From contig JAMYGW020000016.1 in NCBI GenBank assembly GCA_025617375.2, positions 117,805 to 181,804 on the forward strand: 64,000 bases of DNA, given 5' to 3'. A program made the translations under genes and the position numbers. Below are positions 21,288-59,129 of this stretch, piece after piece. The first letter of the stretch is position 1, and each line of letters starts with the position of its first letter. This DNA comes from Acarospora socialis (taxonomy: Eukaryota; Ascomycota; Lecanoromycetes; Acarosporales; Acarosporaceae). The notes under the pieces are model-generated. The model made no database searches. It worked only from the letters and a program-made list of their open reading frames with translations, and was not told the DNA's origin.

Positions 21288-21557
21288 ATGAATTTATCAC
21301 TAATACTTTTTTTAATCGGAATTTTAGGTTTTGTTTTAAATAGAAAAAACATTATTTTAATGCTTATCTCAATCGAAATAATGCTATTAGCTATTACATT
21401 TTTAATATTAGTAAGTTCACTTAGCTTTGATGATATATTAGGCCAAACTTATGCTATCTATATAATATCAATTGCAGGAGCAGAATCAGCAATAGGGTTG
21501 GGTATTCTAGTAGCATTTTATAGATTAAGAGGAACAGTTTCTATAGAATATAAATAA
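21288..21557 (+). CDS. nad4L: NADH dehydrogenase subunit 4L
   Basis: 89 residues, three membrane segments ([54 protein letters not shown]). The conserved Glu residues of Nad4L/NuoK lie in the second and third helices (SIEIMLL and AGAESAIGL). Its stop TAA (21555-21557) shares one A with the nad5 ATG, the usual fungal overlap, indicating co-transcription. Confidence 0.96.
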
Positions 21558-24500
21558 TGTATCTAGCTATAATAGTCTTACCATTATTAGGATCAATAGT
21601 TTCCGGCTTTTTTGGTAGAAAAGTTGGAGTTAGGGGAGCACAATTAATAACATCAAGTTCTGTAATAATAACAACAATATTGGCAATCGTTGCCTTTTTT
21701 GAAGTAGGTTTAAACAACATACCTGTATCAATTCAACTTTTTAGTTGAATTGATTCAGAGTCACTTAATGTTTCATGAGGTTTTCATTTTGACTCGTTAA
21801 CAGTAACAATGTTAATACCAGTATTAATAGTTTCTTCTTTAGTACATGTATATTCAATAGGTTATATGAGTCATGATCCTCGGCGAGGTTGCGTTAGGGG
21901 AAAACGTGACTATGGGGATAAACTGTCAAATTCCGGGAATCTCCTAAAGCTTATGGTACCAAGCTGTAGTTGAAAAACTATGAGTGGCTGAACTAATTAC
22001 TCAGGTAAGGTAACAAGCCATAAGATAAGTGAAAACAAAATGGACAATCGCGGATCTAAGTCAACAATACTATATAGTATGGTTGTAAAAGAGCCACGAG
22101 TAGACGGCAGTTTATACATTAAGCAATTAATGTATTTAAGGTATACTCTAAGGGGTTTCGAAAGAAACCGAGGTATATACCTCGGTTTCAACATGCAACC
22201 ATGTTGAAACTCTCAGGTCAAAATCCCATCTAAACAATTCAATTAAAAAAAAAAATTCTCTACCTATAACTCAACTCCTCTAAATCCTTGGGTTTGATCT
22301 GGTTTAATAGATGGTGAGGGTTCATTTACTATAGTAATAGATAGAAATAAAATCCGTAAATTAGGTTGACGTGTTCAATTGAAATTTCAAATTGGTCTAC
22401 ACACAAAGGATCTTTATTATGTCTATTACAACAATATTTGGGTGGTATTTGTTCTATTCATTTAGCTCGAAATCGAGACATAGTTAATTATTCAGTTTAT
22501 TCAGTTAAATATTTAAATAAACTTATTATTCATTTAGAAAACTAGCCATTATTAACTCAAAAAGCCTCAGATTTATTTTTATTTAAAAAAGCAGTAAAAC
22601 TTGTGAAGAATAAAGCTCATCTTACTGTCGAAGGTTTAAATCAAATAGTAAACATAAAAGCATAAATGAATTTAGGTTTATAAGTTAAAATAATAGTTTG
22701 CTGGATATACTCCTGTTGAAAGACAAGTGATTAATTATGATAACGTAATTTTAGACCCTTTTTGAATATCGGGTTTTGTCAGCGCTGAAGGGAACTTTTA
22801 TGTTCGTATGCCTCTATCCGGAAGTAAAATTGGATATCGAGTACAATTGAGATTTAGAATAACCCAACATGAAAGAGATCTTAGATTAATGGAGAAAATA
22901 GTTAAATATTTTGGATCCGGAAAAATCTACAAATATAATGGTAAGTCAGCTTTTAGTTTAACAATAGTTGACTTTTCGGTTATTACTAATATAATAGTTC
23001 CTTTTTTTAAGGAAAATCCTTTAGTTGGCATAAAAATATATGATTATCTTGATTGGTGTAAAATTCATAAATTAATGATTAATCGTTGTCATCTTACAGT
23101 TGAGGGTCTAAATTCAATTAGAGAAATAAAATCTGGTATGAATAAAGGTAGAAATTTGGAGGTTAAGTAACACCGGTTATTTATGATAAAATTAATTGTA
23201 GGATAAATTTGACTGTAAAGCATAATCAAAGATTTTTCAGTTACTTAAGTTTATTCACCTTTATGATGATTATACTTGTAACAGCAAATAATTTTTTACT
23301 CATGTTTGTAGGATGAGAAGGTATACATAAATGCCTTAAATGGTTAAATTTGCATGATGATAGTGTTTTAAATTTTATGTTTTTTATACATACTTTTAAT
23401 CAAAAAAGATTCTTTTTTTCCAGAAAATTAAAATCAAAAGAAAGAATAGGTCCACACAACTTAGATGTAATATCTTTAATAGTAGGTTCTTTATTAAGTA
23501 ATTCATACCTGGAAAAAAGAAAGTATGGATTAGGAATTAGAATAATATTTGTAAAGTGTAGTAATAATGTAGAATATTTAATGTGGTTTCACTCATTTTT
23601 AGTTCAAAGAGGATATTGTAGTCATAATAAGCCTAAGTTATCTAAATTAATAGGTAAAGGGAATAAAGTATTGTTTCTTTATAGTTTTAATAGTTATAGT
23701 TTCTCTAGTTTTATTTGGTTATTTAATATGTTTTACAGAGATAACCTGAAAATAATACCTCGTAATTTAGATAAATACATTACACCTTTAGCTTTAGCTA
23801 GTTTATTCTTATCGTCTGCCGAATTAAGTGGTAAAAAAACTGAAAAAGGTAAATTAGGTAAATTAGCTACTAGATTAGTTTCTATAGAAGATTTAAATTA
23901 TTTATCTATTATTTTAAAAAATAAATACAATATAGAGACAGTTATTAAGTTTGATAATGGTGGATCCTTTTATGTTAAAAATTCTTCTTTTTCTACTTTT
24001 TCTAAAATAGTAAAGCCACACATATTACCTTCACTACATTACAAATTAAATAGATCTATCATTAAATTAAGTTTATCTGGTACTCATAGTCTACACAATT
24101 CTTCTATTTCTTATTTATCTTCAAAAGGTATTTCCACTCAAACTAAAAAAGATCTCTCCAATGTAAAATATACCATTAAGTATAAAAAAGAATATTAATT
24201 GAGTTTAGAACAAAAACAAGCTCTTATTGGTATAATTTTAGGAAATGGTTACTTAGAAGTAAAGCTAACCATAATACAAGATTGCGTATAGAACAATCAT
24301 ATACTGAAAAAGAAGGATATTTAAGACATTTATATGAATTACTTGAGCCTCTAACTGCTGTGTCTCCTACTGTTTTAACAAGAAAGGATAAACGTAATTA
24401 TTCTGTTTATAAATCCCTCTATTTTAGAACTTTAGCTATACCTTTTCTAAATTATTATTACGATTTATTTTACCAGGAAAAAGTTAAAATAGTTGCTAGA

Positions 24501-27500
24501 AATTTAGATGAATTATTAACCGCAAAAGGTTTAGCATACTGAATTATGGATGATGGAGGTAAATCAGTATACAATCAAACAATACTACATACTAGAGCGT
24601 ATACCTTAGAAGATGTTAAATATATTCAGTTTGTTTTATTTAAAAATTTTGGTCTGAATACTAGAAGAAAAGAAAAAAGATAAATGAGTTATTTATATTC
24701 CAGTTAGACAAAAAACTAAAATTAAAGATATTGTGGGACCATATTTGCATGAGAGTATGTTATATAAAATATAATAGGTTTTAGAGGCTCTCTCGATCTA
24801 TTAATTCTTATAAACACTTAATTATGATAACTTGCCATAGTTAGTGATATTATATTTAGGGAATCAAAATAGTTTCAGTTATACTGAAACCATCACAATT
24901 GAAGGACAATATATAGATTAAAACCTTATAAGTTTTAAGAGATTAAACTTAACCTTAGGGTTTTAATATATCACTAGCAATACCATTGAAAACGATCAAA
25001 TAAATTATAGTAATTTAGAGATCGTCGGTTATATTTTGGATCGCGATCGACTAGTACAATGGTGGGTGCCTGTAATGGTGCTTAATGCATAGTCAGAATC
25101 TTTATATTATCTCGTATAATATACTAGGGCTTTAAGTAAAACCTGTTAGGTATTAAAGTACAGGGGTTAATCCATTGTGTATAATAAATATTTTATTATC
25201 CAATAATAATTTTAATCCAAGATTTGGTGGGTATTTGCTCATATCTTTTAGTAAGTTTCTGATTTACTAGAATAGCAGCAAATCAAAGTTCCATGTCCGC
25301 TTTTATAACAAACAGAGTAGGTGACTGTTTTTTAACTATAGGTATGTTTGCTATACTTTGAAGTTTTGGTAAGAAAACAAAAATGTTTAAAAATATTAAT
25401 AGAATGAAAAATAAACAGATTAAAACTTATAAAGAATATTCTAATCTTTGTAGTAATTATAAAATGGCTCCTTACTTAGCGGGTTTAATCGAAGGCGTTG
25501 GCCATATAGCCGTACATGATAAAACTTCTAAATCAAAAAAGTTCCGTCCTAAAATTATTATAGTGTTTAATAATAATGATAAACCTTTAGCAGATAAATT
25601 ATCTACTCTTTTAAAGCTAGGTAAAGTAATTCCTAAAAAGGGAGGGTATGTTATATTACAAGTTTTAGCTAAAGAAGAAGTTTTAAAAATTATAAATCTA
25701 ATAAATGGTTATATGCGTACCCCTAAAATAGAAGCTTTACATAGAGCTATAAATTGAATAAATGAAAATTATAATACTTCTATACCCTTTTTAAGTTTAG
25801 ACTTATCACCTATTAACTCTAATAGTTGATTAGCAGGGTTTACTGATGCAAATGGTAATTTCTCTTTAGTTATTTCTGATCAAAATAAAAAAGGTAAGTT
25901 AAAAACAAGAGTACAAACTTTTTTCCGCATAGAGTTAACTCATAGCTACCCTAGATATGTTGAAAAGTGTTTAGGTGGTAGTAGCTATTTTAACATATTA
26001 ACAAAAATTGCCGCCTTTTTAAACGTCAATCTTTATACTAGAACTAGATATATAAAAGATAAAGTCTATCATTCATTTATAGTAATAGCTCATAGCTCTA
26101 GAAACCATAATATAGTTCGAGAATATTTTGATAAGTTTCCTCTATATTCTTCAAAATACTTAGCATATAAAGATTGATGTTTAGTTCAAGATATATATAA
26201 AACTGCAAACATCTTAACTAAAGAAGATTTTAATCAGATTAGAAAAATAAAAGCTCAGTTTAACAATAATCGAAAAATATTTGATTTTTCACATTTAGAT
26301 TCTTTAACATTTTAAATATATTGCCGTGAGTGATAGTAATATCACCCTTATTATATAACTGTATGCGGGAAACTCCTAAAGTCTTTTTGTAGGATGTTGT
26401 GAAATCTTTGTATTAAAAATATTTATAGGTATAATACTAGAAGAGTACACAAACCTTAAACATCAAAAAGAATAGATCTTTTTATTAGATAATTTAAATA
26501 AAACTAAGTGAAAATGGACAATCCGCAGGAAATCGAATAATATTTAATTAAAGAGATCCTCAGAGACTACACGTTATACCCCATTAATGTATATGGGTGA
26601 AGATATAGTCCAATTTATTTATGAAAGTATTTAAGTAAATTGAATATAGATTATGCAACTGTATTTTCATTAGCTCCATTTATTAACGAAAATATTGTTA
26701 CTGTTATAGGAATTTGTTTATTAATTGGTGCTATGGCTAAAAGTTCTCAAATAGGTCGTGTGAAGGCCCTTAAAAAACTGTGAGTTATTTCAGGTTTTTT
26801 TTGAACTTTGATATATGCTGGAATAATTTCAAATGCTTTAGAATCCGTAGGTCCAGTTAAATCTTTTGTACTTTATTCGACATTTTATAGATTAAGGCTT
26901 AAAAAGCCTTTTATCTTGAGTAATAAAAAAGGATTGAGATATTATAGTACAGGGTTAGAAGCAAAAAGGGGTGGTTTAAAAGACTGTAGCCCAGGTAAAG
27001 TTTCTAATGTTAGCAAGATTAGCATACTGGGTCCGGAACAATTTCAAAGACAAGGAATCAATCAGCAGGAATTAAATAAATTAACCGATAAGAAATTATT
27101 GGATATTACATTTTTAGAATGATTTATAGGTTTTACTGAAGGGGATGGATCTTTTGTAGTTACACAAGGTAAATCTGTTTTTTCTTTTCATTTACACATG
27201 GTTGATTTACCCTTATTATATTTAATGCAAAATCAATTAAATATGGGTAATGTTTATTTGCAGAAAAATTCTGCAACATTTATTGTAAAGGCTAAAACCG
27301 ATATTAATATTTTAATAAATCTTTTTAACGGTAACCTTTTTTTGCGTAAACGACAAAAACAATTTTATAAATGAGTTGAAAATTTTAATATAAAAAATAA
27401 AACAACCATTAGAGTTAAATCACATGAGTTTAAACCATCTCTAAATGATAATTGATTAGCAGGATTTATTGATGCAGAGGGAAGTTTTTTTGTTTCTGTT

Positions 27501-30500
27501 AGTAAAATAAGAATCTATCAAAAATTTGCTATTGGGCAAAAAGATGCGGAGTTAGAGTTTTTACACCTAAATACAATGATTAAAGGTAACTATCAGCTGG
27601 AAAAATCTATAGATTTTTCTCGTATTGTTGTAAGTTATTTTAATTTAGATACAATAATTGAATATCTAAGTAAACATAAATTATACTCAGTAAAAGCCCA
27701 ATCTCTAGAAAAATGACTAGAAATATATAAATACCGTAAAAACAAACCAGCAAAAGAAGTCGCCGATTACAAACAAATGAAAAAAAAGGCTAGTTTAATA
27801 AATCAACTAAGAAAAATACCTAGTAAATTTTCTTGTGCTAATAACTCCGGTTAATTGTTTAGAAGATCCTCAGAGACTGAGTTTTAACTAACTCCTGGGT
27901 TAAAAATAAAGGGATTTCTCTATATATCTCTTCATAATTTATTGCTAGATTAGAGCAATATGTTTAAATATCCCTTTTTCTACATCTATTTTTAATCTAG
28001 ACACTCAAAGTAAATAGTTAATCTATATTACTATTTAAAGATATAGTCCAATTTTTTTGCTTCACGTTTGATTGCCTATGGCGATGGAAGGTTTAAAAAA
28101 ATTTTATTTAGTTATTACAGATTATAACTTATTATGCTTTTCTGTTTTAAAAATTTTTTTATAATAAACTAGATTATAAATTGTCAACAAAAAACAATAA
28201 AAATTTACAGAGGTTTTACAAAAAACGTCATTACCGATTTATTTATGTTTGTGCTCCAGATAAATATGTAGCTCGGTTTAGAAATATATCCGAAGCTGCA
28301 AAGTATTTAAATATTAAACCTAGAACTGTAGCAGCTTATTTAGATGTAAATAAACTATTTAAAAATAAATGGATAATTACTTCTAGGCAACTTGGGTGAC
28401 ATAAAGTATGAATAAGTCATCTAAAACTAGACATAATATTGGTACATTTATTAGGTTATTCTAATTTCTGTATTGAACCTATATATTATTCACATATAAA
28501 GTACAATTTAATTTTTAAATTTTTATCTCATAAGGAATATTATGCTAAATATTTACGTCATATTCTATCTAATTTTACACCCTCAGAAATTATATCTTCA
28601 TCAATTACTGACTTTAAAGGTAAAAATCAAACAAGCTACATGTTTTATGCTAGCTGTTTAGAGAATTGATTTTTGTACCATCTTTTATATAGTGATGATA
28701 CAATTATAAAACCTAAAGTAAACATGGACATATATTTAAATCCTATTAGTCTGGCCCATTTAATACACGGGAATGGATACTTTTTTTTAGATTGTGTTCT
28801 AATATATGCATCTATTTCTAAACAAGATGGGTTATATTTAATAAAAATTTTAAACAGAAAATTTGGAATAAAAGCTACTTTAGGTGAAAATTTGGAAAAG
28901 GATTCAGGTATAATTATTAAAATAAATAGCTCAAGTATTGATGAATTAATGCAAAAAAATTTAGTCTTTTATAAAACCTGTAGGGATATTATTTCATTCT
29001 TTTAAATAAATTGGGCTTTCGTTAAACTTCACAATATGCGGGGACATCCTGCTTTAATTGTTGGTCCACTCAAGAGATATTTATTGTTAGGTAAAATCCA
29101 AGTATAGGGACAATCCGCAGGAAACAAACAACAATCAATTATTGGTAGCTTCCCCAGAGACTACTCGTGAAGCATTTAGATTAAAAAATAGTCTATTTAG
29201 AGATCTAAAAATCTAAATAGACTAGATAAGATAAAATAATATAAATTAAGAGATAGTCCGAACAGTTCTGTAAATAACTGTGTATTTTTAATCTTTATAA
29301 ATATTAAAAGTCAACCTTTTTGCCTACACCAGTATCTGCATTAATACACGCTGCTACAATGGTAAACTGTTGCCGTTGATTAATGTGAGTTAATCAATTA
29401 TGATATCGCTATGTGCTGGAATTTCCTTACATCAAGTTTATTCATATTTTAAGTAACTTAAATAAGATGAATAAAAAAATCTTGTGTTCTATAGTAGAAA
29501 AAAGACTCTTTGCTATAGAAGGGGTTAATCAGCAGGAAACTTTATTATCTTATATTAACAGTACAAACACTAATGATAGTAAAGGATCCTCAGAGACTAC
29601 ACGCGATATAACTTATATTTTTGATGAATATTCAAATTTAATACCTCAACACAAAAAGAAAATAAATAAAAATTTCTTAGAGTGATTCATAGGATTTACA
29701 GAAGGAGATGGTTCTTTTATCGTATCTAAAGATAAAGTTTATTTTGATATAACTCAGAGTCTGCATGATATACAAGTTCTCTACTATATAAAAAAAGAGT
29801 TAGGCTTTGGTAAGGTGATAATTCGAAGCGAAATACACAGAAAGCTAGGTGTTTTCTATGTATCTTCTAAAGAAAATTTTACTAGATTAATGGCAATTTT
29901 TAATGGAAATCTTTCTACCAATTACAAAAAAGAACAATTTAGAAGATGACTAGACACATACAATAAACAATATAGTATGCATATTCCTTTTAAAGATAGA
30001 TTAGTTAAACCTAGTTTATTTTCAGGCTGAATATCAGGATTTAGTGATGCGGAAGGTTGCTTTTATGGAAGAGTGAAAAGTTGTTCAACATCTAAGCTTA
30101 GAAAAGCTCCCCATTTGACTTTTCAAGTATCTCAAAAAGAATTTTATATTATAAAAACTTTACGAGATATATTTTTGCTTTGCAGCAAACACTGTGATTC
30201 AGATTTGAAAAATATTAACTATGATAAGTCTTGAGATGGTTGATCATTCCATTGTTCTTCTTTTACTAAACTTAAAGTAATTAGAAATTACTTTTTTAGA
30301 TACGAATTAAAAACCAGAAAATCTCTTGCATTTAAAAAATGATGTAAAATACATGATATGGTATTACATAAGAAACATCTTAGATTAGAAGGTTTAAATA
30401 AAATAGATAATCTAACTAAAGACATAAATAAATTTATAAGTTAAAGATATAGTCCGATCCATATTGAAAAATATGGTGTGCTATTCCTTATCATATCCAT

Positions 30501-33500
30501 TTTTTTTTAAGGGAATAGCCAACACAAATGTACAGCGGGTGTGTATTTATTAATGCGTGCATCTCCTTTAATAGAATATAGTTCAACAGTATTAATACTA
30601 TGTTTATGAATAGGAGCTATTACTACTGTATTTAGTTCTCTTATTGGTTTATTCCAACAAGATATTAAAAAAGTTATAGCATATTCTACTATGAGTCAAT
30701 TGGCTCGAGAATATAAATTAAATTCTATTATATTCAGGCATCAAACTATATACGAAGAAATTATTAAGTATATTATAATTTGTTACATTAAAATGCAATT
30801 ATTTATTAAAAAAAATTTATTTAAAAAAGTTAATTTTATGATAAGACCCTTATCAATGCAGCATTCTATCATTTATAAATTAAATCCTTATTATGTAACT
30901 GGATTTGTATACGGTGAAGGATGTTTCCTTATAAATGTTAATACCAGATCTGATCAGAAATTAGGGTATAACGTAAATTTAATGTTTAAACTAAAAATAC
31001 ATTTAAGAGATAGAAAATTATTAGAAAATATATGAAATTATTTCGATAATCTAGGTAATATTACTATTAGAAAACATGGTTATATTGAATTAATCGTTAG
31101 TTCTATAAAAGATATAAAAGTTCTTATTAATCATTTTGATAGTTATCCTTTAATAACACAAAAGTGGGCGGATTATCAAATATTTAAGCAAATTTTTATA
31201 TTAATAAATAATAAAGAACATGTAAAAATTGAAGGATTCAAAAAAATATTGTCATTAAAATTAGTTTTTAATAAAGGACTATCTTCTCAATTAAAATTAG
31301 CTTTTCCTTATATATTCCCTGCTATAAGACCTCAAACACCTTTATCTCAAATTCAAGATCCTTATTGAATATCAGGATTTGTAGATGCAGAAGGATGTTT
31401 TTTTGTGAGATTATCTAGTACTTTAACTAGTGCAAGTTTAGTATTTAAAGTAACACAAGACATTAGAGATGCTAAGTTATTACAAGAGTTTATTAATTAT
31501 TTTAAATGTGGATATTATAAACTTAGCTCAATAGTGGCGGGTTATTATACTGTTACTAAATTTAATGATATAAATACAATAATTATTCCTTTTTTAAAAA
31601 AATATCCTCTACTCGGATTAAAATCTAAAGATTTTAATGACTTTGTAAAAGTTGCAGAATTAATACAAGATAAAGCCCATTTAAAAGGAATTGAACAAAT
31701 TAAACAACAAATTAAATCTGGTATGAATAAAGCTAGAGATATTAATAATTATTTTTGGAGTTTATTATCTAAAAATAAAAATTCATATAAAGAAATATTA
31801 CAATATCCTGGGGATAAAAAACATTATTCTACTATGGTAACAAAGTCATACAATTCGAGTTTATTATCTTTAACTACTTACAAATCATTTAATGAGTGAT
31901 TGGGAGGATTAATAGATGGTAAAGGTCAGTTAGTAGTATCTAAAAAAGGTTATGCTAATTTTAAAATTATATTATCTGAAAAAGATAAATCTATACTTTA
32001 TGAAATAAAACACAAATATGGAGGATCTATAAAAAGTATTTCTGGAAAAAATTCATATAGATATAAATTACATCATAAAAAAGGTTTAATTAAATTAGTT
32101 AATAGTATTAATGGATTAATTAGAAATCCTGTAAAGATATTACAATTAAATAAAGTTTGTACATTATATAATATAGAACTTAAACCTATTATACCTTTAA
32201 TATATAATAATGGATGATTAAGTGGTATTATAGATGCTGAAGGGTCAATAAGTTTAAATGAACAATCTGATAAATTGATTTTAAGTATTACTCAAAAAAA
32301 TAGATTTATATTAGATCCTTTAAATAAATTATACGGAGGAAGAATTAAAATTGTTAGCTCTAAAGATGCATTTCAATATTCTATATATAGAAAAAATGAA
32401 ATTTTAAATTTAGTAGATAATTATTTTATTAAATATCCATTAAAATCTAGTAAAGCTAATAAACTTAAAATTATAGAAGATTTTTATCTTTATATAGATA
32501 AAAATGAACCAAATAATTTAAAAAAATGAATAAATTTTAAAAATAAATGAGACAAATTATAATATAAATATTAACTTCATATATTGCTATAAATAATATA
32601 GCAAAGAGGTTGGTTTTAAGAACATTTATATAGTTATTTCAATAATTAATTCGCAGATAACCAAAGCTCTAGGTTATATTTATTATAATCTAATTAGTGG
32701 TAATCTTCTTAATTCATCTCTCACTCTGTGATTGTACTATTACATAATTAAATATGTAATTATGTCAGTAAGATGAAAGATTATAACTATAAGCAAGTGA
32801 GTAGGAATCTCAGAGGCCATACGTTTGATATTAATTTTTGTTGTTAAATTAACTATAGTTAATCTAACAACAATAACATTTATCTTTATTAACGATTTAT
32901 TTTTATTAAGTTTAATAATTATATTTAATATCTTATATTTTACAATATTTATGTGTTATTTTTTTTTATATTATATTCTTTAGTTTGTATTACTACAATA
33001 GTTTTTTTGATGTTACCAAATTTAGAAATATCCATAGCTGTATAAATACAACGATTAATACTTCAGATAATAAAAAAAAGGCTAAGGATTTAGCCTTTAA
33101 TTATTAGCGGGTTTAATAGACAAAGACGGATATTTTAAGTAAAAAAGGATATTCTAGTTGTGAAATTTCTATGGATTCTAGAGATAAAAAAGCATTGTAT
33201 GAAATAAAACAAAAATATGGTGGAAGCATAAAACCTATTTCAAATGCTTAATCTATAAGATATAAGACATAAAAAGGTTTAATTTAATTAATAAACGATG
33301 TAAATGGATTAATAAGAAATCCCGCACGGTTATTACAAATTAATAAACTTTGTGTAAATTACGGTATAGAGTTAAAATATCCAGCCCCATTAACTTTTAA
33401 TGATGGATGATTAAGTGGATTTATAGATAGTGACGGATCTATTTATTATAATGAAGCATCTGGACTAGTATTTAGAAGTTTATCTCGGAAAAATAGATAT

Positions 33501-36500
33501 TTATTAGAACGGTTAATAGCAATATACGGAGGAAGAGTTTATATACTTAGCCCTAAAATAGAAGCATTTAAATATGTTATCTATAGAAAAGCTGAGTTAT
33601 TTAATAGATAATTATTTTACGAAATATCCTTTTAAAAACAAACAGAAAAAATGAGCCGGGTTAATTTAATAAAATATTTCAATCGACACACTGTCGATGG
33701 AAATAGCCAAGATATAAATAAATACAATGATTGAATTACATTTAAAGATAGATGAGAAAAATATAAAAATTAATAAAGAAATGGTCCAAATTATACTATT
33801 AATCTTTATAGTGTATTTGCAATTAGGAATGATGGTTATTGCAGTAGGTTTATCATCTTATAATGTAGCTTTATTTCATTTAGTTAATCATGCTTTTTAT
33901 AAAGGACTTCTATTCTTAGGTGCAGGTTCTGTTATACACGCATGAGCTGATAATCAAGACTTTAGAAAATATGGAGGATTAAGAGCATTTTTACCTTTAA
34001 CATACTCAGTTATGTTAATAGCTTCTCTTAGTTTAGTAGCTTTTCCTTTTATGACAGGGTTTTACTCTAAAGATTTTATACTTGAATCTGCTTATGGGCA
34101 ATTTTATTTTTCTAGTACTTTTGTATATTTTATAGCAACTATAGGTGCAATGTTTACTACTTTATATTCAGTTAAAGTTTTATACTTAACTTTTTTAACT
34201 AATCCTAATGGACCTTTAGTTAACTATAGAAAAGCACATGAAAGTGATATTTTTATGAGTATACCTGCCGGGCGATCTGGGATATCGCCCATAGTGGGTA
34301 ATAAACTATCAAACTCCGGGGACACCCTAAAGCTTCTGGTACCAAACTATATACGAAAGATTATAAGTGGCTGAACTAATTATTCAGGTACGGTAATAAG
34401 TCAGGAGATTTCTGAAAAGATAATGGGCTATCGCGGATCTAAGTCAGATTTTATTTAAAAATTTGTAAAAGAGCAACGAGTAGACGGTAGTTGTCACAAA
34501 AGAAATTCTCTTGTGTTTAAGGTGTACTCTAATGGATTTCGAAAGAAATTATCCAGTCAGAATCCCATCTTAACAAATGTATTTACGGGTTATAATCGTA
34601 ACTTTATAACAGGTATTACTTCTATTTCAGGAGGACAGCAGAAATTACATCCCTCTTTTGTAACAGGATTCTCTGATGGAGAAAGCTATTTTTCTATTAA
34701 TTATAACATATCTACTAAGATGAATAAAGGCTGAATTATAAATTTACAATTTGGTATATCTTTACACAAAAAGGATCGACCTCTAGAGTTAATTCAAACA
34801 TTCTTTAGGGGTCGAGGAACTGTTGCGTCACACGGTAGAGGAAAAGTTCAATATAGAGTTTAATCTATTAAGGATTTACAAGTTATTATACACCATTTTG
34901 ATAATTTGCCTTTAATTACTCATAAATGGTCTGATTTTCAATGATTTAAACAAGCTTTTGAATTGGTTAAATCTAAAAAACATTTAACATTAAACGGTTT
35001 AGTCAATATTGTGACAATTAAGACTTAAATGAATTTAGGTTTACCGCATGATTGAAGTCGTACTTTTCCTAAGATAATTCCAATTGTGCGGCCTTTAGTA
35101 GAAAACATGGTAATAATAGATCCGAATTGAATATCAGGATTTGTTAATGGTGAAGGTAACTTTTTTATATTTGTTATAAATTCTAAAACAAAAGTTGGAA
35201 AGCAAGTTGTCTTAATGTTTTCAACAACTGAACATTTTAGAGACGATTGCTTGCTCCGGTCTCTTTGTGATTTATAAGGTTCTCGTGCTTACTATCCTCG
35301 TTCCTATCGAGATAAAGGAAACTTTACTGTTACAAAGTTTTCCGATATAGAACAAAAAATTATACCCTTTTTTAAAAACTATCCAATTAACGGTGTTAAA
35401 TCTCTAGATTTCTCTGATTTTTGTAAAGTGGTGGAAATAATCAGAGTGAAAAAGCATCTAACACAAAAACGGGAGGTTGAGATTGAAAAAATCAAAAGTG
35501 TAATGAATACTAAAAGGGTTAGTTAAGGAATTCTTTTTCCTATACCCTTTTGTATATAGATACAGTTTTTTAATAATGGCCTTTTTGCCTAATAATCTAT
35601 TTAGAGATAACCCATATTTATATTTGTATGATAAATCTGATCGCCTTGTTAATTATTTTAGCTTTTTTTTCTATTTTTTTTGGTTATATCACTAAAGATA
35701 TATTTATTGGATTAGGTTCAGGTTTTTTTGCAGATAACGGTTTATTTATACACCCAAGACATGAAATTATGTTAGACACAGAATTTGCTGTTCCTCCTCT
35801 ATTTAAATTGCTACCTTTAATTTTTACGATTTTATTAAGCGTAATTTCTATAGTTTTATCAGAATTTTACCCTAAACTATTAATAAGGTTTAAATTTACT
35901 AGGTTTGGTTATAATATCTTTAGTTTTTTTAATCAACGTTTCTTAATTGAACTTTTTTATAATCTTTATATTACGGATCTTATATTAAAATTGGGAGGTC
36001 AAACAACGAAGGTTATTGACAAAGGTTCTGTTGAATTATTAGGGCCTTATGGTTTGGAAAAAGGATTGATTAATTTAAGTAAAAATATTGCTAGTTTAGA
36101 TACTGGTGTTATTACATCCTATGCCTTATATATATTAGTTGGACTTATTTTCTATATATTAATACCATATTTATCTTTAACGGATAATTGTCTTATAATT
36201 ATAATGTTGTTTGGTCTAATATCACTTACTGAAAGTAAACAATTTAGGCCGCCTCTTTCTCACTCTTTTGTAATATCACCTTTACAATCTGGTGTCTTAT
36301 ATGCAGTAGGTGTTTTATCTTTAACTTTTTATTTTGAAAATTTATGTAATATAAACGTTAATATAACATATTCTATTCCATATGTTATTTCATTAAATGA
36401 CATTATAGCGGATTTTACTAATAGTATAACTCCAAGTTTTACTAGTCGTTTTACTAATATATACATACCTAGTGTTAACTTCCATGATTTCAGAATAGTA

Positions 36501-37934
36501 GATCTTAGTAGAATTTATAATTCTGTGGTTAATAATAGTACTAGTTTATCAAATAATAGTTTACCTTACTATGGTTTTAATAGAGGATGTATTTTATTGT
36601 CCCATAATCCCTCTATTTTTAATCTAAGTTTTATTTTTAGTTATAAAGCATATATTTTTGTCCTATTAGTTCCTTTGTTGTCATTAATAAATAGTATTTT
36701 TTCCTTTTTATTTGCTAATTCATCAAATTTGCTTTCATCAAGGATTAAATTGCCTACATTTATTAGGGATAAAACTAAAACAATTTATAGTCGCGGGCTT
36801 TCGCTTTTATCTAGGATTAAATTGCCTTCTTTTATTAGGGATAAAACTAAAACAATTTATAGTCGAGGGCTTTCGCTTTCATCTAGGATTAAATTGCCTT
36901 CTTTTATTAGGGATAAATTTAAAACAATTTCTAGTCGTTTGGCTTCATCGATTACTAAATCACCTAATTTTGCTCTTAATATAGAAAAAGAAACTTTAGG
37001 TATATTTAGTAATATGATGGATTCGTCTATAACCAAATTACCGGAATTTCTTTTTGATATACCTAAAACCATTTCTCCTGAGTTTAGGAATATTACGGTT
37101 AACATTTTTCATACTAGTCAAAGAGATACCACTTGGCATAATTACTGCAATTTTAATATTGCTGAAAGAGCACAACACATAAGGAGTGCAATAGACGCAC
37201 ATGCTAGAGAACTATTGTTTTTAGCTACAGCTAGAATTCCAGAACAAATTTCTGAATTATATCGGGAGATTAATGAGTTAAATAGGATCCCTGGTGTTAA
37301 TGTGAGTATTGTAAATGGATTTGTTACTGCTATTTTATCACCACGTCTCGCTGGAAATAGATCTTTGGCTAATAGGATTAAAATTTTAGACGATATGGCT
37401 TGTGTTATACAAGGTTATTTTGCAGATATGGTTAGATCATTGGCTGCAATTATGCAATTAGTTGATATGATGAAAACCTACTACACAGACTTTCAGATGG
37501 ATTCGGCTTTGTCTAATTATAGAAGTATAATTCATGCACTAATTGAAAATAGTTCTACACTATACTCAATGCGGGTGTATAATGAATTATTAGATGAAAC
37601 TTTAATTGAGCTATCTAATTATTCATCCCCTCGTGATTTCTCTAATTTACATGATGATGTTTCTTCTCGTGAGGATTGGTTTTGTAAAAAAATTACGCAT
37701 AGATTTGGTTATGGGGTTACATATGATTCTGCCGGCGAGCCTAGTTCTTGCGGGATTAACATTGGTGTAAACGGTACACATGATTGGTACGAATCAGAGC
37801 AACATGTTACACGTGAGCACCCTTGTTGTTATTGCAATATTGATTTTTCAGATTCGGATCACAGAATTAGATGCTATATGTGTAAATGCACTCTTCATAC
37901 TAACTGTTACAGTGATTTACACAAAAATGCTTAA
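21557..37934 (+). CDS. nad5: NADH dehydrogenase subunit 5, nine exons, long C-terminal fusion
   Basis: Proton-pumping subunit of complex I. Exons from protein continuity plus the T|...G| rule of group I introns: 21557-21880, 23221-23322, 25227-25370, 26643-26756, 28060-28092, 29323-29363, 30531-30696, 33820-34266, 35649-37934. They sum to 3657 nt = 1218 codons plus stop with no frame conflict. Conserved blocks include [88 protein letters not shown] and [19 protein letters not shown]. Ordinary Nad5 ends after about 650 residues (near [11 protein letters not shown], about 36235). The frame then continues for about 565 foreign codons. Confidence 0.9.
21881..23220 (+). mobile_element. nad5 intron 1, group I
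   Basis: Follows T at 21880 and ends with G at 23220. Core text GATAAACTGTCAAATTCC, CTAAAGCTTATGGTACCAAG and the final GTAGACGGCAG are the same class as nad5 intron 8 (34267). Carries a broken LAGLIDADG ORF. Confidence 0.85.
22265..23170 (+). pseudogene. LAGLIDADG endonuclease in nad5 intron 1, frameshifted
   Basis: First half: [20 protein letters not shown] and [15 protein letters not shown], then a frameshift near 22400 and stops. The second half is open from about 22690 to 23170 with [34 protein letters not shown] and [18 protein letters not shown], the canonical family C-terminus. Two-motif LAGLIDADG_1 enzyme, dead through the first half. Confidence 0.8.
23323..24198 (+). CDS. LAGLIDADG_2 ORF, in frame with nad5 exon 2
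   Basis: Open from exon 2 (WEG then [13 protein letters not shown]) to TAA at 24198. LAGLIDADG_2 layout: first motif region [17 protein letters not shown], middle [20 protein letters not shown] and [21 protein letters not shown]-terminal [12 protein letters not shown]. The second motif, normally W-x-M-D-D-G, is [10 protein letters not shown], and the first lacks its acidic residue (LLSNS where LLGDG/LLSDG is usual). The reading frame is kept but DNA cleavage looks lost; a maturase role is possible. Confidence 0.75.
   Translation: MHKCLKWLNLHDDSVLNFMFFIHTFNQKRFFFSRKLKSKERIGPHNLDVISLIVGSLLSNSYLEKRKYGLGIRIIFVKCSNNVEYLMWFHSFLVQRGYCSHNKPKLSKLIGKGNKVLFLYSFNSYSFSSFIWLFNMFYRDNLKIIPRNLDKYITPLALASLFLSSAELSGKKTEKGKLGKLATRLVSIEDLNYLSIILKNKYNIETVIKFDNGGSFYVKNSSFSTFSKIVKPHILPSLHYKLNRSIIKLSLSGTHSLHNSSISYLSSKGISTQTKKDLSNVKYTIKYKKEY
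24199..24774 (+). pseudogene. second LAGLIDADG_2 ORF in nad5 intron 2, frameshifted
   Basis: [20 protein letters not shown] starts it. After a 1-nt shift near 24260 comes [53 protein letters not shown] (motif intact) and [11 protein letters not shown] second shift near 24675 leads to [13 protein letters not shown] and MLYKI, ending at TAA about 24774. Close to the intact family consensus apart from the two shifts, so decay is recent. Confidence 0.8.
25371..26315 (+). CDS. LAGLIDADG maturase-like ORF, both catalytic Asp lost
   Basis: Open from exon 3 to TAA at 26313-26315 (about 315 residues). Two LAGLIDADG motifs, but [14 protein letters not shown] has Val and [14 protein letters not shown] has Asn where the metal-binding acidic residue normally stands (compare GLIEGDG and GFIEADG in the related nad4 intron ORF). 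The C-terminus is normal ([26 protein letters not shown]). With an undamaged frame, this suggests loss of cleavage with retention of RNA splicing help (inference). Confidence 0.85.
25371..26642 (+). mobile_element. nad5 intron 3, group I
   Basis: Between T 25370 (SFG codon) and G 26642. Core strands GGACAATCCGCAGGAAAT, AGATCCTCAGAGACTACACG and GAAGATATAGTCC (26514-26612). Its ORF is continuous with exon 3. Confidence 0.88.
26757..27854 (+). CDS. LAGLIDADG homing endonuclease, nad5 intron 4
   Basis: Reads on from exon 4 ([14 protein letters not shown]) to TAA at 27852-27854. Motifs [14 protein letters not shown] and [14 protein letters not shown] keep both acidic residues. The middle has the [20 protein letters not shown] and FYKWVENF blocks of this LAGLIDADG_1 subtype. 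About 110 poorly conserved residues precede the first motif. Looks intact. Confidence 0.88.
26757..28059 (+). mobile_element. nad5 intron 4, group I
   Basis: Between T 26756 (SQIG) and G 28059, next to the 33-nt exon 5. Core text AGATCCTCAGAGACTGAG and AAAGATATAGTCC near 27865-28050. Confidence 0.85.
28093..29322 (+). mobile_element. nad5 intron 5, group I
   Basis: Between T 28092 (MAMEG) and G 29322. Core strands GGACAATCCGCAGGAAAC, TCCCCAGAGACTACTCG and AGAGATAGTCCGAAC at 29108-29270. Flanked by the two shortest nad5 exons (33 and 41 nt). Confidence 0.85.
28181..29005 (+). CDS. LAGLIDADG_2-type ORF with NUMOD1-like head, nad5 intron 5
   Basis: 275 codons with TGA as Trp at 28397 and 28667; free-standing, TTG or ATT start. 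The N-terminus ([30 protein letters not shown]) looks like a NUMOD1 DNA-binding helix-turn-helix module. Then [50 protein letters not shown] and [19 protein letters not shown] match the second half of LAGLIDADG_2 enzymes. The second motif has Asn for Asp (HGNG against MGDG). Activity doubtful. Confidence 0.65.
29364..30444 (+). CDS. LAGLIDADG homing endonuclease, nad5 intron 6
   Basis: Continuous with exon 6 in code 4, ending TAA at 30442-30444. Motifs [14 protein letters not shown] and [14 protein letters not shown] are intact. C-terminal [19 protein letters not shown] is typical. The N-terminal part runs through the catalytic RNA core, so the same bases serve ribozyme and protein, as in other in-frame intron ORFs. 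Confidence 0.88.
29364..30530 (+). mobile_element. nad5 intron 6, group I
   Basis: Between T 29363 and G 30530. GGGTTAATCAGCAGGAAAC, GGATCCTCAGAGACTACACG and AAAGATATAGTCCGATCC are the core strands; the first two are themselves translated as part of the intron ORF. Confidence 0.88.
30697..32562 (+). CDS. fused double LAGLIDADG endonuclease (four motifs)
   Basis: A single frame from exon 7 through TAA 32560-32562, about 620 residues. First unit: [14 protein letters not shown] and [14 protein letters not shown], ending [20 protein letters not shown]. Second unit from about residue 400: [34 protein letters not shown] and [14 protein letters not shown]. Each unit alone is the usual size of a complete two-motif enzyme. 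The second unit's first motif has Lys where the catalytic Asp belongs. Such a four-motif head-to-tail fusion is unusual; it probably arose when an endonuclease gene inserted in frame at the end of another. Confidence 0.85.
33095..33640 (+). pseudogene. third LAGLIDADG unit in nad5 intron 7, decayed
   Basis: [19 protein letters not shown]-type frameshifted middle, [14 protein letters not shown] and [11 protein letters not shown], with TAA codons and frame changes. It resembles the second unit of the preceding four-motif ORF, so a tandem duplicate of that unit. Confidence 0.7.
34267..35648 (+). mobile_element. nad5 intron 8, group I
   Basis: Between T 34266 (SIP) and G 35648 (then [13 protein letters not shown]). 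The core GATAAACT..., CTAAAGCTTCTGGTACCAAA and GTAGACGGTAG mirror nad5 intron 1, indicating a related intron at a second site in the same gene. Confidence 0.8.
34513..35526 (+). pseudogene. LAGLIDADG endonuclease in nad5 intron 8, nonsense-broken
   Basis: [78 protein letters not shown] to TAA at about 35526. In-frame TAA at about 34861, 35026 and 35275. No frameshift, so decay is recent. Confidence 0.8.
36238..37934 (+). CDS. foreign C-terminal extension of Nad5
   Basis: About 565 residues in frame with nad5. The junction has [16 protein letters not shown], resembling a COX1 C-terminal peptide. Then two membrane segments ([34 protein letters not shown]), then three 24-residue repeats [20 protein letters not shown] (36730-36950). 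A helical domain follows ([35 protein letters not shown]), homologous to the ORFs at 15987 and 38342. The Cys/His knuckle is C-x2-C-x12-C-x2-C-x4-H-x2-C near the end. Either it is translated as a fused Nad5, or it is released or not made; the sequence cannot tell. Confidence 0.7.
36730..36955 (+). repeat. 72-bp tandem repeat, three copies
   Basis: Unit contains AGGATTAAATTGCCTTCTTT and TTTATTAGGGATAAAACTAA. The copies differ by a few bases and stay in frame, giving a 24-residue peptide repeat with a basic, amphipathic character. Confidence 0.85.
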
Positions 37935-38365
37935 TTTAAAAGTTTTAAAGTTATTACAAAGTTTACCTATAGCTATAACATAACTATGCGTAAGATATAG
38001 TGCATATTTCAATGTTAAAGTGTTTCTATCATTGTTTTAGGAATATTACTTTCTTCCCTCAACATTTGTTAGGTTTACCAGGAATGCCTAGAAGAATTAG
38101 TGCCTTTCCTTACGCGTTTGTGGCTTGAAATTTAGTAAGTAGTTTCGGTTCTACAATATAAGTAGTTGCTACAAGGTTATTTTTATATACCGTGTATGCT
38201 CAATTAGTTTGTGGTAAACATACATCAAGATATCCATGGTTAACTCCCCAGTTTTATAGTGATTTATTACAAACTTTATTAAATAGAGCTTACAACAGTT
38301 TAGAATGATGTTTAAATAGTCCGCCTAAACCTCATGCATTTGTGAGTTTACCTTTACAGAGTGGT
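37935..38365 (+). pseudogene. cox1: cox1 3' end copy 2, with intron tail
   Basis: An intron-tail stretch (CGTAAGATATAGTGCATATT) is followed by cox1 codons from about 38035: [36 protein letters not shown] (about 38157), VVATRLF, then [52 protein letters not shown]: the true C-terminus of COX1. The stop and the D-to-Y change at PDAFAGW make it non-functional. After PLQS the frame carries on into the next ORF instead of stopping. Confidence 0.8.
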
Positions 38366-38911
38366 GCAAAGGATATGATAACCATTGCTATATCAGGGAT
38401 ATTAGTGACTATTCCTAGCTCTTATCTATCTCTTGTAAAAAACTTTGGCCTTGGTATATTGTTTGGAATCCCTGTAGTTACTAACATAATCGTATATGCT
38501 AACACAGGAATTGTTATATCAGAGGAGGGGTTATTAGGTCAATTACAAGAGACATTAAGAGATTTAGATAGGTATTTAGTTCAACTTAATAATTTTATAA
38601 ATCAATTTCATAACTTTGTAAGCCAAAATGATATTGCAGTAATTACTAGTGAAACCGGATCTTTACAGATTGATGTATCTGTAAGTCTAGATAACGTTAC
38701 TGCCCAAAACTATGCTAATAGAATTGAAGTATTTGATCGATTAATTCACCATCATATTAATGAGATTGAATCTTTACTAGAGAGAGCTAGTAATATTGAA
38801 AATCAAATAAGGGATTTGAATAGTGATTATGTTACTCAATTAAATTCCTATAGAGAAAGACTTAGTTCATTAATTAGTAGTTATGGCCATACTATACAAT
38901 CTTGGTATTAA
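38342..38911 (+). CDS. COX1-tail / coiled-coil chimeric ORF
   Basis: In frame with the cox1 C-terminus: FVSLPLQSGAKDMITIAISG, a hydrophobic segment (ILVTIPSSYLSLVKNFGLGI), then about 140 residues of helix-forming sequence (LQETLRDLDRYLVQLNNFIN, ANRIEVFDRLIHHHINEIES, LLERASNIENQIRDLNSDY). ANRIEVFDRLI matches [11 protein letters not shown] of the nad5 extension. No zinc knuckle. GTG 38342 or a cox1-linked start. Truncated paralog at 56087-56533. Confidence 0.6.
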   Translation: MSLPLQSGAKDMITIAISGILVTIPSSYLSLVKNFGLGILFGIPVVTNIIVYANTGIVISEEGLLGQLQETLRDLDRYLVQLNNFINQFHNFVSQNDIAVITSETGSLQIDVSVSLDNVTAQNYANRIEVFDRLIHHHINEIESLLERASNIENQIRDLNSDYVTQLNSYRERLSSLISSYGHTIQSWY

Positions 38912-39409
<498 letters not shown>

Positions 39410-41555: not shown

Positions 41556-41628
41556 TACGTTGTAGACTAATCGGTAAGTCATAAATTTTTGGTATTTATT
41601 ATTGAGTGTTCGAATCACTCCAACGTAA
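41556..41628 (+). tRNA. trnQ: tRNA-Gln(TTG)
   Basis: Perfect acceptor TACGTTG/CAACGTA, D-arm GACT/AGTC, perfect anticodon stem TAAAT/ATTTA with loop TTTTGGT (anticodon TTG), T-arm GAGTG-TTCGAAT-CACTC, discriminator A. Confidence 0.92.
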
Positions 41629-41739
41629 GACAATAATTTATATCTAAACAAATGTTTAACCCGATAAATTATATAAAATATGCCCATTTTAGCATACATT
41701 AACTAATTTAAATTATACATAATAAAAAAAGTATAAAAA

Positions 41740-41814
41740 GGTGGATCTAGTTCAAAAGGTAGAACAACTGTATGTGGAATAGTAAGTTCTCTGTTCAAGT
41801 CAGAGTATCCTCCC
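41740..41814 (+). tRNA. trnH: tRNA-His(GTG)
   Basis: Acceptor GGTGGAT/ATCCTCC (one mismatch), D-arm GTTC/GAAC, anticodon stem ACTGT/ATAGT around ATGTGGA (GTG), T-arm CTCTG-TTCAAGT-CAGAG, and the His-specific discriminator C. Confidence 0.9.
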
Positions 41815-41959
41815 TAGATGCCAGCCTTTTGCTTACAAGGGTGTTTTTAACTAACTTAATTTTTAATAAAATAAAACGGATTATTTAGTTAATAGTTTAT
41901 GGTTTATAAATATAAAGTAAAGTTTAACTTTTTAATTTTTAATCTAATTCTTTAGCCCT

Positions 41960-42074
41960 AAAAAGATAAAAAGATAAAAAGATAAAAAGATAAAAAGATA
42001 AAAAGATAAAAAGATAAAAAGATAAAAAGATAAAAAGATAAAAAGATAAAAAGATAAAAAGATAAAAAGATAAA
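41960..42074. repeat. 8-bp tandem repeat (GATAAAAA)n
   Basis: About 14 head-to-tail copies of GATAAAAA just before trnM; likely replication slippage. Confidence 0.9.
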
Positions 42075-42096
42075 CTATAAGATATATGAAAAAACC

Positions 42097-42169
42097 GCCC
42101 GGATAGTTCAATTGGTTAGAACATTAATTTCATGCATTAACAATGAGAATTCGAGTTTCTCTCCTGGCT
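42097..42169 (+). tRNA. trnM: tRNA-Met(CAT)
   Basis: Acceptor GCCCGGA/TCCTGGC (one mismatch), D-arm GTTC-AATTGGTTA-GAAC, perfect anticodon stem TTAAT/ATTAA with TTCATGC (CAT), T-arm GAGAA-TTCGAGT-TTCTC. Confidence 0.9.
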
Positions 42170-45822: not shown

Positions 45823-48706
45823 ATGTTACTTATGCTTTTATTGTTAATACCTATACTAGGTATCTTTATTATTTCAACAGGTATGTTTGATGAACTTTCC
45901 GCGATAAATATAAAACGAATTAAAGTTATTGCCTTAACTACATCAATAGTAAACTTATTTGTATCCTTAATAATCTTTATATTATTTGATTTTTCTAGTA
46001 ATCAATTTCAATTTGTTCAAGAATACCATGAAATAACTAGCTTTGATTTTTATTTAGGTGTAGATGGTTTATCTATATATTTTGTACTTTTAACTACGAT
46101 AATAATTCCTATTTCTTTTTTATCTAATTGAACTTCTATTTCAGAAAATGTAAGATCATATGTAATAATTATTTTATTACTAGAGACATTATTATTAGCA
46201 GTGTTTTTAGTATTAGATATTTTATTATTTTATATTTTTTTTGAGAGTATTCTTCCCCCATTATTTATACTAATAGGGTTATTTGGATCAAGTAATAGAG
46301 TTAGAGCGAGTTTTTACCTATTTTTATATACACTTTTAGGGTCATTATTCTTATTACTTTCTATTCTTACAATGTCTTCAATAATGGGAACTACAGATTT
46401 TGATGCATTATACAAAACTAACTTTAATTACTATACTAATTTATTTTTATTTTATGGTGTTTTCATAGCTTTTGCGGTTAAAACTCCTACAATTTTTTTA
46501 AACACTTGACTTTTAAAAGCTCATGTGGAATCACCTTTAAGTGGTAGTATTATTTTAGCAGGTAAAACTGTGCCTGCTTTAAACTTAGCTATATGCTGGA
46601 AACACCTTAAAAACTTTTACATGCAAGTTATAAGGTCAATCAGCAGGAAACTATTTGCGATTAGCAGTTTTAATCATAAATTTTGAGAAGATTTATTGTT
46701 AAAATTAAATATTATTAATTTATTTAAAATACTTAATTTAATTAATATAAAATTAAATAGGATCCTCAGAGGCCATACGCTAAGAGTATTTAATTCAAAT
46801 ACAAATTCAAATAAAAACTATAATATAAATTGCGCAGATTTTAATGAAAATGCTATTTCTTATCAAACGAATAGTAAATTAAGTTGTTATCTGGCAGGAT
46901 TAATTGAAGGAGATGGTAATATATATATTCCGAAAAATAATAAAAATGCTTGTGTAATATCAATAGCATTTAATAGTAAGGATTTACCTTTAGCTTTAAT
47001 AATACAGAAAGAATTAAATATCGGTAATATTTATAAAATAAAGGGTAAAAACGCATATACTTATAGTATAAGTGATTTAAAAGGATTAATAAAAACAATA
47101 AATTTAATAAATGGTTATATGAGAACACCTAAAATTGTACCGTTGCATAAACTTATAGAAATTATTAATAAAAAAGGATATAATATAAATAAATTACCAT
47201 TAGACTATACTAATCTTAACACAAATGCATGACTTTCTGGCTTTATAGAAGCGGATGGTCATTTTTATATTAGAGTAACAAAAAATAAAAATTGTTCTAG
47301 TTATAAAATTGCTTGTATGTTAGAGTTAGCTCAAAAAGCGATTAATCCAAATAATGATAGTTTACTTAATATTATGACTGATATTAGTACATTTTTATCT
47401 TGTATATTAAAGTTTAGAAGTAAAAATAAACAATATTGAATAAGAACGTGTAATTTAAAAGCTAATCTAATATTAAAAGATTATTTAGAAAACTATCCTT
47501 TATTTAGTAGTAAATATTTAGATTATATAGAATGAAAAAAAGTGTTAAAATATATTGAGAAAAAAGAGCAAGGTAAAAACCTAGAAAATATTATTAAAAT
47601 AAAAAACAAAATAAATTCAAAGAGAATTTATTTTAGTTGAAATCATTTAAATAAATTTTATAAATATTTTTAGTAAAATATATAATACTAAGATATGGTC
47701 CGATCCATCATGTAAATGATGGCGTACCTTCCTAACCAATAATAAATTTCTCAATCAATTAAAAGACCTAATTGATATTTATTTTAGTTAGAGGCTAATG
47801 TCATATCCTGAGAAAGGAAGAAGGTCAACAAAATTTTTTTCGATAGTTTTAAAATTAAGCCTTTATGGTATTCTTAGATTAATTTTACCGCTATTACCTA
47901 AAGCTTCTTTAGATTACACATATATAGTATATCTTATAGGAGTTATAACTATTATATATGCTAGTTTAAGTACTTTAAGAACTATAGATGTTAAAGAACT
48001 TATTGCTTATTCTTCTGTATCTCATGCAGCTGTATATCTAATGGGTGTATTTAGTAACACAATACAAGGAATAGAAGGAGGGATCACTTTAGGATTAGCC
48101 CATGGTTTTGTTTCTTCTGGTTTATTTATTTGTGCTGGAGGTGTTTTATATGATAGATCTTCTACTAGATTGATTACTTACTATAGAGGTATAGCTCAAG
48201 TAATGCCTTTATTTTCTATATTATTTTTTATACTCTGTTTAGGTAATGCTGGAACACCGTTAACATTTAACTTCATTGGTGAGTTTATGTGTCTTTATGG
48301 TACTTTTGAAAGATTACCTTTATTAGGGATTTTTTCAAGTTCTTCTATAATATTTTCTGCAGCTTTTACTATATATATGTTTAATAGAATAGCATTTGGA
48401 GGTTCATTTTCTAAATATTTCCTAGTTAATATACCTGATCTGAATAAACGTGAATTCTTTATTTTATTAACATTAGTTGTGTTTACTGTAGTACTAGGTA
48501 TATACCCATCACCAGTTTTAGATGGTTTACATTATTCTGTGTCTTGTTTAATCTATAATAGCCCAATAGATTATGATATAAATAGTTTATCCTCTTTATT
48601 ACCTTTTTTTGTATACAAAAAAAGTATGAAAAATAAAAAAAATAATCTTTCAACTTTTCATCATTGCAAGTTTAGCACTAGTGGGTATTTGGTTTTTATT
48701 AGATAA
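45823..48706 (+). CDS. nad4: NADH dehydrogenase subunit 4, two exons
   Basis: Complex I proton-pumping subunit. Exon 1 45823-46563, exon 2 47843-48706; 534 residues. Blocks: DFYLGVDGLSIYFVLLTTII, YIFFESILPPLFILIGLFG, KTPTIFLNTWLLKAHVESPL, LAYSSVSHAAVYLMG-type ELIAYSSVSHAAVYLMGVFS, LAHGFVSSGLFICAGGVLYD. The last 45 or so residues (after CLIYNSPIDYDINSL) are an oddity. The 3' fragment at 59132-59504 stops at LLPIFV, but here a few bases are lost and the frame reads on to SGYLVFIR. Confidence 0.93.
46564..47673 (+). CDS. LAGLIDADG homing endonuclease, nad4 intron
   Basis: In frame with exon 1, ending TAG 47671-47673. Motifs [14 protein letters not shown] and WLSGFIEADGHFYI (TGA 47229 = Trp) keep both acidic residues. 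FNSKDLPLALIIQKELNIGN and [19 protein letters not shown] are shared with the nad5 intron 3 ORF, its degenerate-motif relative. Looks intact. Confidence 0.9.
46564..47842 (+). mobile_element. nad4 intron, group I
   Basis: Between T 46563 (LAG) and G 47842 (IVLKLSLYG). Core strands GGTCAATCAGCAGGAAAC, GGATCCTCAGAGGCCATACG and CTAAGATATGGTCCGATCC. Confidence 0.88.
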
Positions 48707-50760: not shown

Positions 50761-50834
50761 GATCCATTATTTTTTATTAAATGGTTTCACCATTTCCTTT
50801 ATATTTACTTTTCTTCTGGTTTCTTTTTATTTAG

Positions 50835-59095: not shown

Positions 59096-59129
59096 ATAAA
59101 GATTTATTCTAGATGATATTTCTAATAGT

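Follow-up and report, generated by a model that had tools for sequence, protein, structure and literature searches.

The question raised by this locus is whether a mitochondrial nad5 gene, the last exon of which runs without a stop codon into a large unrelated coding sequence, specifies a complex I subunit with a foreign domain at its C terminus, or whether the foreign part is removed from the RNA or the protein. The gene lies within the 64,000-nucleotide stretch of DNA that was analysed (the window), which is fungal mitochondrial DNA in which Pfam identifies atp6, nad1 and nad4, and which comes from a mitochondrial genome resembling those of filamentous ascomycetes. When joined, the nine nad5 exons give 1218 codons and one stop with no frame conflict, as the original prediction had it; the exon boundaries were placed at whole codons, with peptide continuity and not RNA as the guide. 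Exon 9 matches residues 473-670 of the 679-residue Nad5 chain of its best solved relative (255 bits), which we take to be from Chaetomium, with nine residues of that chain remaining beyond the match. On this comparison the Nad5 part ends near residue 652, and what lies beyond it is unrelated to Nad5. The published length of Erysiphe necator nad5 (1959 bp with its stop; PMC8260586) agrees, and the claim that the product becomes foreign past about residue 653 is thus upheld.

Beyond the end of Nad5 the frame (36231-37934) is free of stops up to its terminal TAA, leaving 567 open codons and bearing out the prediction that no stop separates Nad5 from the foreign domain; base shuffles of the same stretch contained a mean of 31.9 in-frame stops, with a minimum of 16 (2000 trials). 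The interval 36204-37014 holds no Met codon, so that the first approximately 260 codons of the extension could be translated only via read-through from nad5, barring a non-AUG start. A tRNA scan from nad5 to 39792 found none, and there is therefore no visible signal for tRNA-punctuated cutting of the RNA near 36240. Self-comparison gave no second nad5 end or displaced nad5 tail within the window. Misassembly at the junction was considered and rejected: the longest exact repeat starting in 36101-36450 measures, within the window, only 13 bp, which gives no hint of a chimeric join.

Table 1. Positions in the window of the nad5 exons, of the parts of the extension and of related sequences.
Feature	Position	Strand	Basis or remark
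nad4L	21288-21557	+	Translation, recognised by eye; directly upstream of nad5, 1-base overlap with nad5 start
nad5 core, nine exons	21557-36230	+	Exon joining and Nad5 match; Nad5 part of exon 9 is 35649-36230
nad5 exons 1-3	21557-21880, 23221-23322, 25227-25370	+	
nad5 exons 4-6	26643-26756, 28060-28092 (11 codons), 29323-29364	+	
nad5 exons 7-9	30532-30702, 33826-34266, 35649-37934	+	
Junction, Nad5 end then COX1-tail-like stretch	36231-36293	+	Residue comparison and scan; COX1-like part is 36246-36293
Extension N part	36267-36710	+	Hydropathy; N/S-rich loop flanked by hydrophobic stretches, 36267-36323 (weak) and 36615-36710
Three 72-bp (24-residue) repeats	36728-36943	+	Self-comparison
Domain A	37152-37934	+	AlphaFold2 model and comparison with copy; ends with TAA stop
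S/P7-like group I element after domain A	37992-38003	+	One mismatch; about 10 chance matches expected in scan; aligned with 39.2-kb copy
cox1 last-exon copy	38036-38368	+	One in-frame TAA; ends SPPKPHAFVSLPLQSG
ORF B, in frame with cox1 tail	38369-38911	+	Helix, beta-hairpin, helix predicted by AlphaFold2
Group I intron core motifs	39030-39175	+	Q 39030, R 39118, S 39164
Second cox1 last-exon copy, truncated	39210-39380	+	Comparison with first copy
A', free-standing copy of domain A	15972-16727	+	Self-comparison; own Met at 15987
ORF B copy without cox1 leader	56021-56533	+	Self-comparison
Remnant of COX1-tail and first extension segment, frameshifted	58462-58775	+	Local alignment, self-comparison

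At the junction, 10 of 16 residues are identical to the end of the cox1 copy (SPPKPHAFVSLPLQSG). When all readings of the + strand were scanned in units of 16 codons, this value was equalled only at 48796 (also 10/16 to the cox1 tail), with 7 at 58462 and at most 6 elsewhere, and the COX1-tail-like nature of the junction is accordingly retained. The motif at 48796 is itself contained in an anonymous 532-codon frame (48703-50301) that runs from the nad4 stop and has hydrophobic stretches as judged by eye.

The extension that follows is composed of several dissimilar parts. Its hydrophobic stretches correspond to residues 664-682 and 780-811 of the fusion product at a hydropathy cut-off of 1.6, which the first barely exceeds; the membrane segments noticed earlier are in this sense confirmed, one of them marginally, and the three 24-residue repeats were recovered as such. 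For domain A, AlphaFold2 (two sequences; mean pLDDT 54.9, with 60-94 in blocks 61-200 and below 50 in the Cys/His part) predicts a long helix, a beta-hairpin, a second long helix and shorter helices, over approximately 37158-37613, ahead of a Cys/His tail at about 37815-37922. The tail scored 13.6 bits against Pfam C1_1 (E 0.06), below the curated cut-off of 26.5, and the tail of the free-standing copy A' gave no Pfam family at E values up to 10. A profile search with domain A reached a diacylglycerol kinase chain in the PDB at E 0.24, the best E value in the PDB profile searches with A and ORF B being 0.13; Foldseek returned nothing at E <= 0.001 for A or B against the PDB, nor for A against viral models. 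Pfam found no LAGLIDADG or GIY-YIG family in P0001, A' or B (E up to 1), or in pieces of the nad5 extension at E up to 10. No relative was confirmed in collections of viruses, prokaryote genomes, plasmids and phages; fungal mitogenomes were outside this scope, so that the result does not address rarity.

Copies within the window allow the extension to be compared with itself. The original prediction placed the Cys/His knuckle alone at 15987-16727; a separate copy does exist there, but it is larger than a knuckle, comprising about the last 250 residues of the extension. Domain A and A' are 81% identical in DNA over 1085 columns, and 144 of 251 aligned residues (57%) are identical in an alignment that stays in register from end to end. 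With the same substitutions placed at random, the frame stayed free of stops in 3 of 2000 simulations and the observed identity was reached in 2 of 2000. This excess lies in the first half of A (identity reached in 64/2000, stop-free in 9/2000), the corresponding figures for the second half being 796/2000 and 422/2000. Cys and His are retained at 16 of 21 places, as in 6 of 2000 simulations, with 14 of 17 retained in the second half when taken by itself (707/2000). The dN/dS of the pair by the plain Nei-Gojobori method is 1.18, which does not show purifying selection. The simulations and the dN/dS value thus conflict, and constraint on A and A' is moderate at best. Codon bias is coding-like for the N part and for A when compared with the other forward frames, yet the score of the extension frame is surpassed by that of the antisense -1 frame in three parts (N, repeat and middle) and, within the repeats, by that of the +1 frame as well; the counts of tryptophan codons are too low for any argument.

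The start of the extension also has a copy, in decayed form, in the 58.46-58.75 kb region. The remnant gave a local alignment score of 152 with the extension start, compared with best scores of 79 for 277 other pieces of the window (300 drawn, 23 dropped as too near) and 72 for 300 shuffles. It sits inside an insertion of about 450 bp that is absent from the homologous region at 52.46 kb. The differences between the extension start and the remnant number 33, 37 and 40 by codon position, an almost even distribution with no sign of constraint.

Immediately downstream of domain A there is a stack of further cassettes built around duplicated cox1 last exons, the identity of which is supported by matches of 38162-38368 (E 1.3e-5) and 39191-39370 (E 2.2e-17) to COX1 in solved structures. 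The first cox1 copy and ORF B together show a replacement-tail pattern, in which an insert carries a tail of the same gene and the native tail is displaced. ORF B, a second coiled-coil ORF, is predicted with a mean pLDDT of 72.4 and gave, among eight ORFs compared with PHROGs, the one weak match (E 0.034, to a family of unknown function). Against its copy, its dN/dS is 0.42 over 159 codons, and the identity of the pair was reached in 23 of 2000 simulations. Common descent of A and B is not claimed, since the equal helix-hairpin-helix order of the two models is accompanied by an hhalign probability of just 0.5%. At 15.9-17.7 kb the arrangement is seen again, with A', a cox1 copy and flank but lacking the B insertion. 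The motifs at 39030-39175, which we take to be the Q, R and S elements of a group I intron core, supplied the query strings for a scan of the window that gave 8 Q, 13 R and 20 S matches where 1.0, 1.4 and 9.8 were expected at the mismatch limits used; the S element alone is therefore weak. An S/P7-like element also follows A' at 16789, and the group I core recurs at 62.2 kb.

Other fused or duplicated sequences are present in the window. In an ORF at 54450-55568 the first approximately 90 codons of atp6 are followed by a short stretch that by eye resembles the nad4 tail, and then by a membrane-type ORF; it recurs without its atp6 leader at 4346-5323 (57% amino acid identity over 312). At 18638-19672, just upstream of the full atp6, an internal atp6 piece (about codons 91-128) is fused in frame to an anonymous ORF. 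A partial copy of the nad4 C terminus lies at 59100-59504 (protein 80% identical over 122 residues), and an ORF region that is duplicated at 2409-3014 and 50736-51646 (DNA 82.5% identical over 928 columns) gave no Pfam or PHROGs match for the 2409 ORF at the limits used. On the - strand, 12200-13985 encodes a DNA polymerase of family B (Pfam DNA_pol_B_2), organellar/viral in type and broken, which is probably the remnant of a mitochondrial plasmid.

Taken together, we consider it on balance probable that a cassette made of a cox1 tail and an ORF for something other than an endonuclease was captured at the end of nad5, and that this ORF is expressed by riding on nad5. In the cassette, a brief stretch from the 3' end of cox1 would lead in frame into a foreign ORF that encodes the hydrophobic segments, basic repeats, predicted helix-hairpin-helix and Cys/His tail; its source may be the stack of similar cassettes around the duplicated cox1 last exons, and its arrival would have removed the nad5 stop. 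The foreign ORF would then most likely be expressed with nad5 as one mRNA and one reading frame, and its product would enter the inner membrane as a C-terminal addition to Nad5. Features of the DNA as read here are the uninterrupted frame, the components of the cassette, the copies (one of them decayed) and the open frames in A and A'. The order of events, with the cox1 cassette first and the nad5 capture second, is suggested by them; the mRNA is presumably continuous and the fusion presumably translated and tolerated by complex I, and the cargo may well be selfish as opposed to useful to the fungus. Capture by nad5 is supported by the open 567 codons, the COX1-like join, the remnant at 58.5 kb and the neighbouring cox1/ORF B stack, by A copies that are both open and more identical than simulated, by the lack of a Met codon in 36204-37014 and of a tRNA ahead of 39792, and by published accounts of hybrid genes in Glomus mRNA and of Tremella nad5-i1 in cDNA (PMC3630166, PMC7315562). 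Against it stand the dN/dS of the A pair, the lack of excess identity in the second half of A, the even codon positions of the remnant, a codon bias beaten by the antisense -1 frame, the lack of relatives in the viral, prokaryote, plasmid and phage collections, and the possibility of a short, unseen last exon.

Such an exon is the basis of the alternative that survives best, though we regard it as unlikely, namely that the extension is an in-frame intronic ORF followed by a tenth, very short nad5 exon, with splicing yielding a normal Nad5. The remainder of the gene gives some reason to take this seriously. Beyond exons 1-8 the open stretch of the nad5 frame measures 121, 291, 314, 365, 23, 359, 619 and 63 codons, respectively; seven of the eight thus read on for 63-619 codons, which makes in-frame ORFs after most exons typical of this nad5. 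In five of the eight introns the frame of the upstream exon is open for at least 290 codons (with two more at 121 and 63), a length reached from 1.1% of random points outside the nad genes and from 4.8% in 20-62 kb, and the single read-on frame tested (30511-32559) contains LAGLIDADG domains by Pfam. For the internal exons, splicing separates these in-frame ORFs. The S/P7-like element at 37992 and the Q-R-S series at 39030-39175 would also fit an intron, and in Tremella, which has six comparable inserts, one of them is described as a real intron (PMC7315562).

Exon 9, however, is unlike the others in that no nad5 exon is visible beyond it and Pfam recognises no endonuclease domain in its ORF; the fusion is thus the default product, barring a tiny unseen terminal exon or cleavage. 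Nad5 has already reached its full length near residue 652, matching the E. necator length (PMC8260586), the stretch at the junction resembles the COX1 tail, and the exon-like sequence past domain A and the S element is cox1, not nad5, although a terminal nad5 exon of a few codons would escape recognition. The region 36231-37991 contains no Q, R or S match, but this argues only weakly against an intron: among the eight nad5 introns the scan located Q in four, R in five and S in five, and introns 1 and 8 gave no match to any of these elements. Rfam similarly reports no intron in 35-42 kb, and none of the eight nad5 introns either.

A second alternative, which we hold to be less likely again, is that translation of the fusion yields a single chain, which is afterwards cleaved near PLQS/G into ordinary Nad5 and a membrane protein with a Cys/His tail. 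We know of no protease motif corresponding to the PLQS/G site, and count this against cleavage; cleavage is favoured by the copy of domain A that stands alone and has a Met of its own, and by the hydrophobic stretch just after the join. In Coniothyrium glycines, a stopless cox1 abuts cox2 and a fused polyprotein has been suggested (PMC6221350). That the extension is a recent, meaningless read-through, its DNA end-joined to nad5 and transcribed, with the product degraded or barely made, is very improbable: the near-unity dN/dS of the A pair, the decay of the N-part copy with differences even over codon positions, and the description of Phlebia cob and nad6 extensions as putatively non-translated (PMC4019555) are consistent with it, but the two copies of A are free of stops to a degree not expected by chance and have more residues in common than simulated, with their protein alignment in register throughout.

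If capture by nad5 is correct, a more far-reaching version of it, which we put forward only tentatively and think rather doubtful as a whole, is that a selfish ORF with a membrane anchor, a coiled coil and a Cys/His tail is expressed solely as an extension of Nad5, such that the host is unable to lose the ORF without losing Nad5. Complex I would then carry a 565-residue appendage, and like cassettes, each a foreign ORF with a piece of a host gene, would have spread onto cox1, atp6 and nad5 sequences. Should the fusion be made, it would imply that a very large additional domain on a membrane subunit is tolerated in one of the core complexes of energy conversion, and that a mobile element with no recognisable endonuclease can be inherited and expressed by becoming inseparable from a gene that is essential; odd NAD5 lengths and unassigned ORFs in annotated fungal mitogenomes would then merit checks at the RNA and protein levels. 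Should the extension instead be spliced out or cut off, the locus would provide a clean test case for the removal of captured sequence by fungal mitochondria.

Comparison with known systems reveals partial precedents for most of these features. Hybrid genes of atp6, atp9, cox2 and nad3 with mobile ORFs are described as mRNA in Glomus sp. (PMC3630166). As in these Glomus genes and in Allomyces atp6, where an ORF-bearing insert takes the place of the 3' end of a core gene or lengthens it in frame, the nad5 insert joins the 3' end of its host gene in phase, and the ORF itself is in phase, as it is in Glomus atp6 and nad3. The Glomus and Allomyces inserts differ, being described as a replacement tail of the same gene plus an endonuclease ORF, with the native tail downstream (PMC3630166). 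At nad5 the tail is cox1-like, self-comparison of the window reveals neither a same-gene replacement tail nor a displaced native one, and Pfam reveals no LAGLIDADG or GIY-YIG ORF. In Tremella, the nad4-i1, nad5-i1 and cob-i2 inserts are reported to be present in cDNA and, among six inserts, one is described as a real intron and two as downstream sequence (PMC7315562). The Tremella inserts resemble the present locus in having a duplicate of the downstream exon at their 5' end, but they repeat their own gene, a pattern that here fits the cox1 copies at 38-39 kb and not nad5.

Core genes that run into unrelated sequence are also reported outside these systems. The atp9-like ORF 0044 of Sclerotinia borealis is stopless and continues for 213 residues into unrelated sequence, although an intact atp9 is present elsewhere (PMC4162613), whereas here the window contains no intact nad5 end; in Phlebia radiata, cob and nad6 have C-terminal extensions of a similar kind (PMC4019555). 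A nad4 length of 2886 bp is listed for Acrocalymma vagum (PMC10725480), approximately twice that of the S. borealis nad4 CDS (1470 bp; PMC4162613), and this is possibly another fused complex I gene in the Pleosporales. A literature search on extension, elongation or fusion of nad5 produced no matches, and in the literature searched we found no description of this anatomy, which combines a non-endonuclease cargo, a cox1-like tail on nad5 and an adjoining cassette stack. The main texts of the Bipolaris oryzae and Edenia gomezpompae mitogenome papers make no mention of a nad5 extension; these two species are given as the sources of the closer homologues of HSP1, a gene of Shiraia-like Pleosporales with a C-terminal part likened to the Mer2 and YtxH-like families (PMC11881002). 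HSP1 is a separate gene there, but in two strains it is followed by trnQ-trnH-trnM, which here come after the nad5 extension (41556-42169), and it has reportedly been regarded as a partial NAD5 region in public mitogenomes (PMC11881002). Stopless core genes that enter foreign sequence are thus already in print, the HSP1/NAD5 report (PMC11881002) being the closest to the nad5 gene described here.
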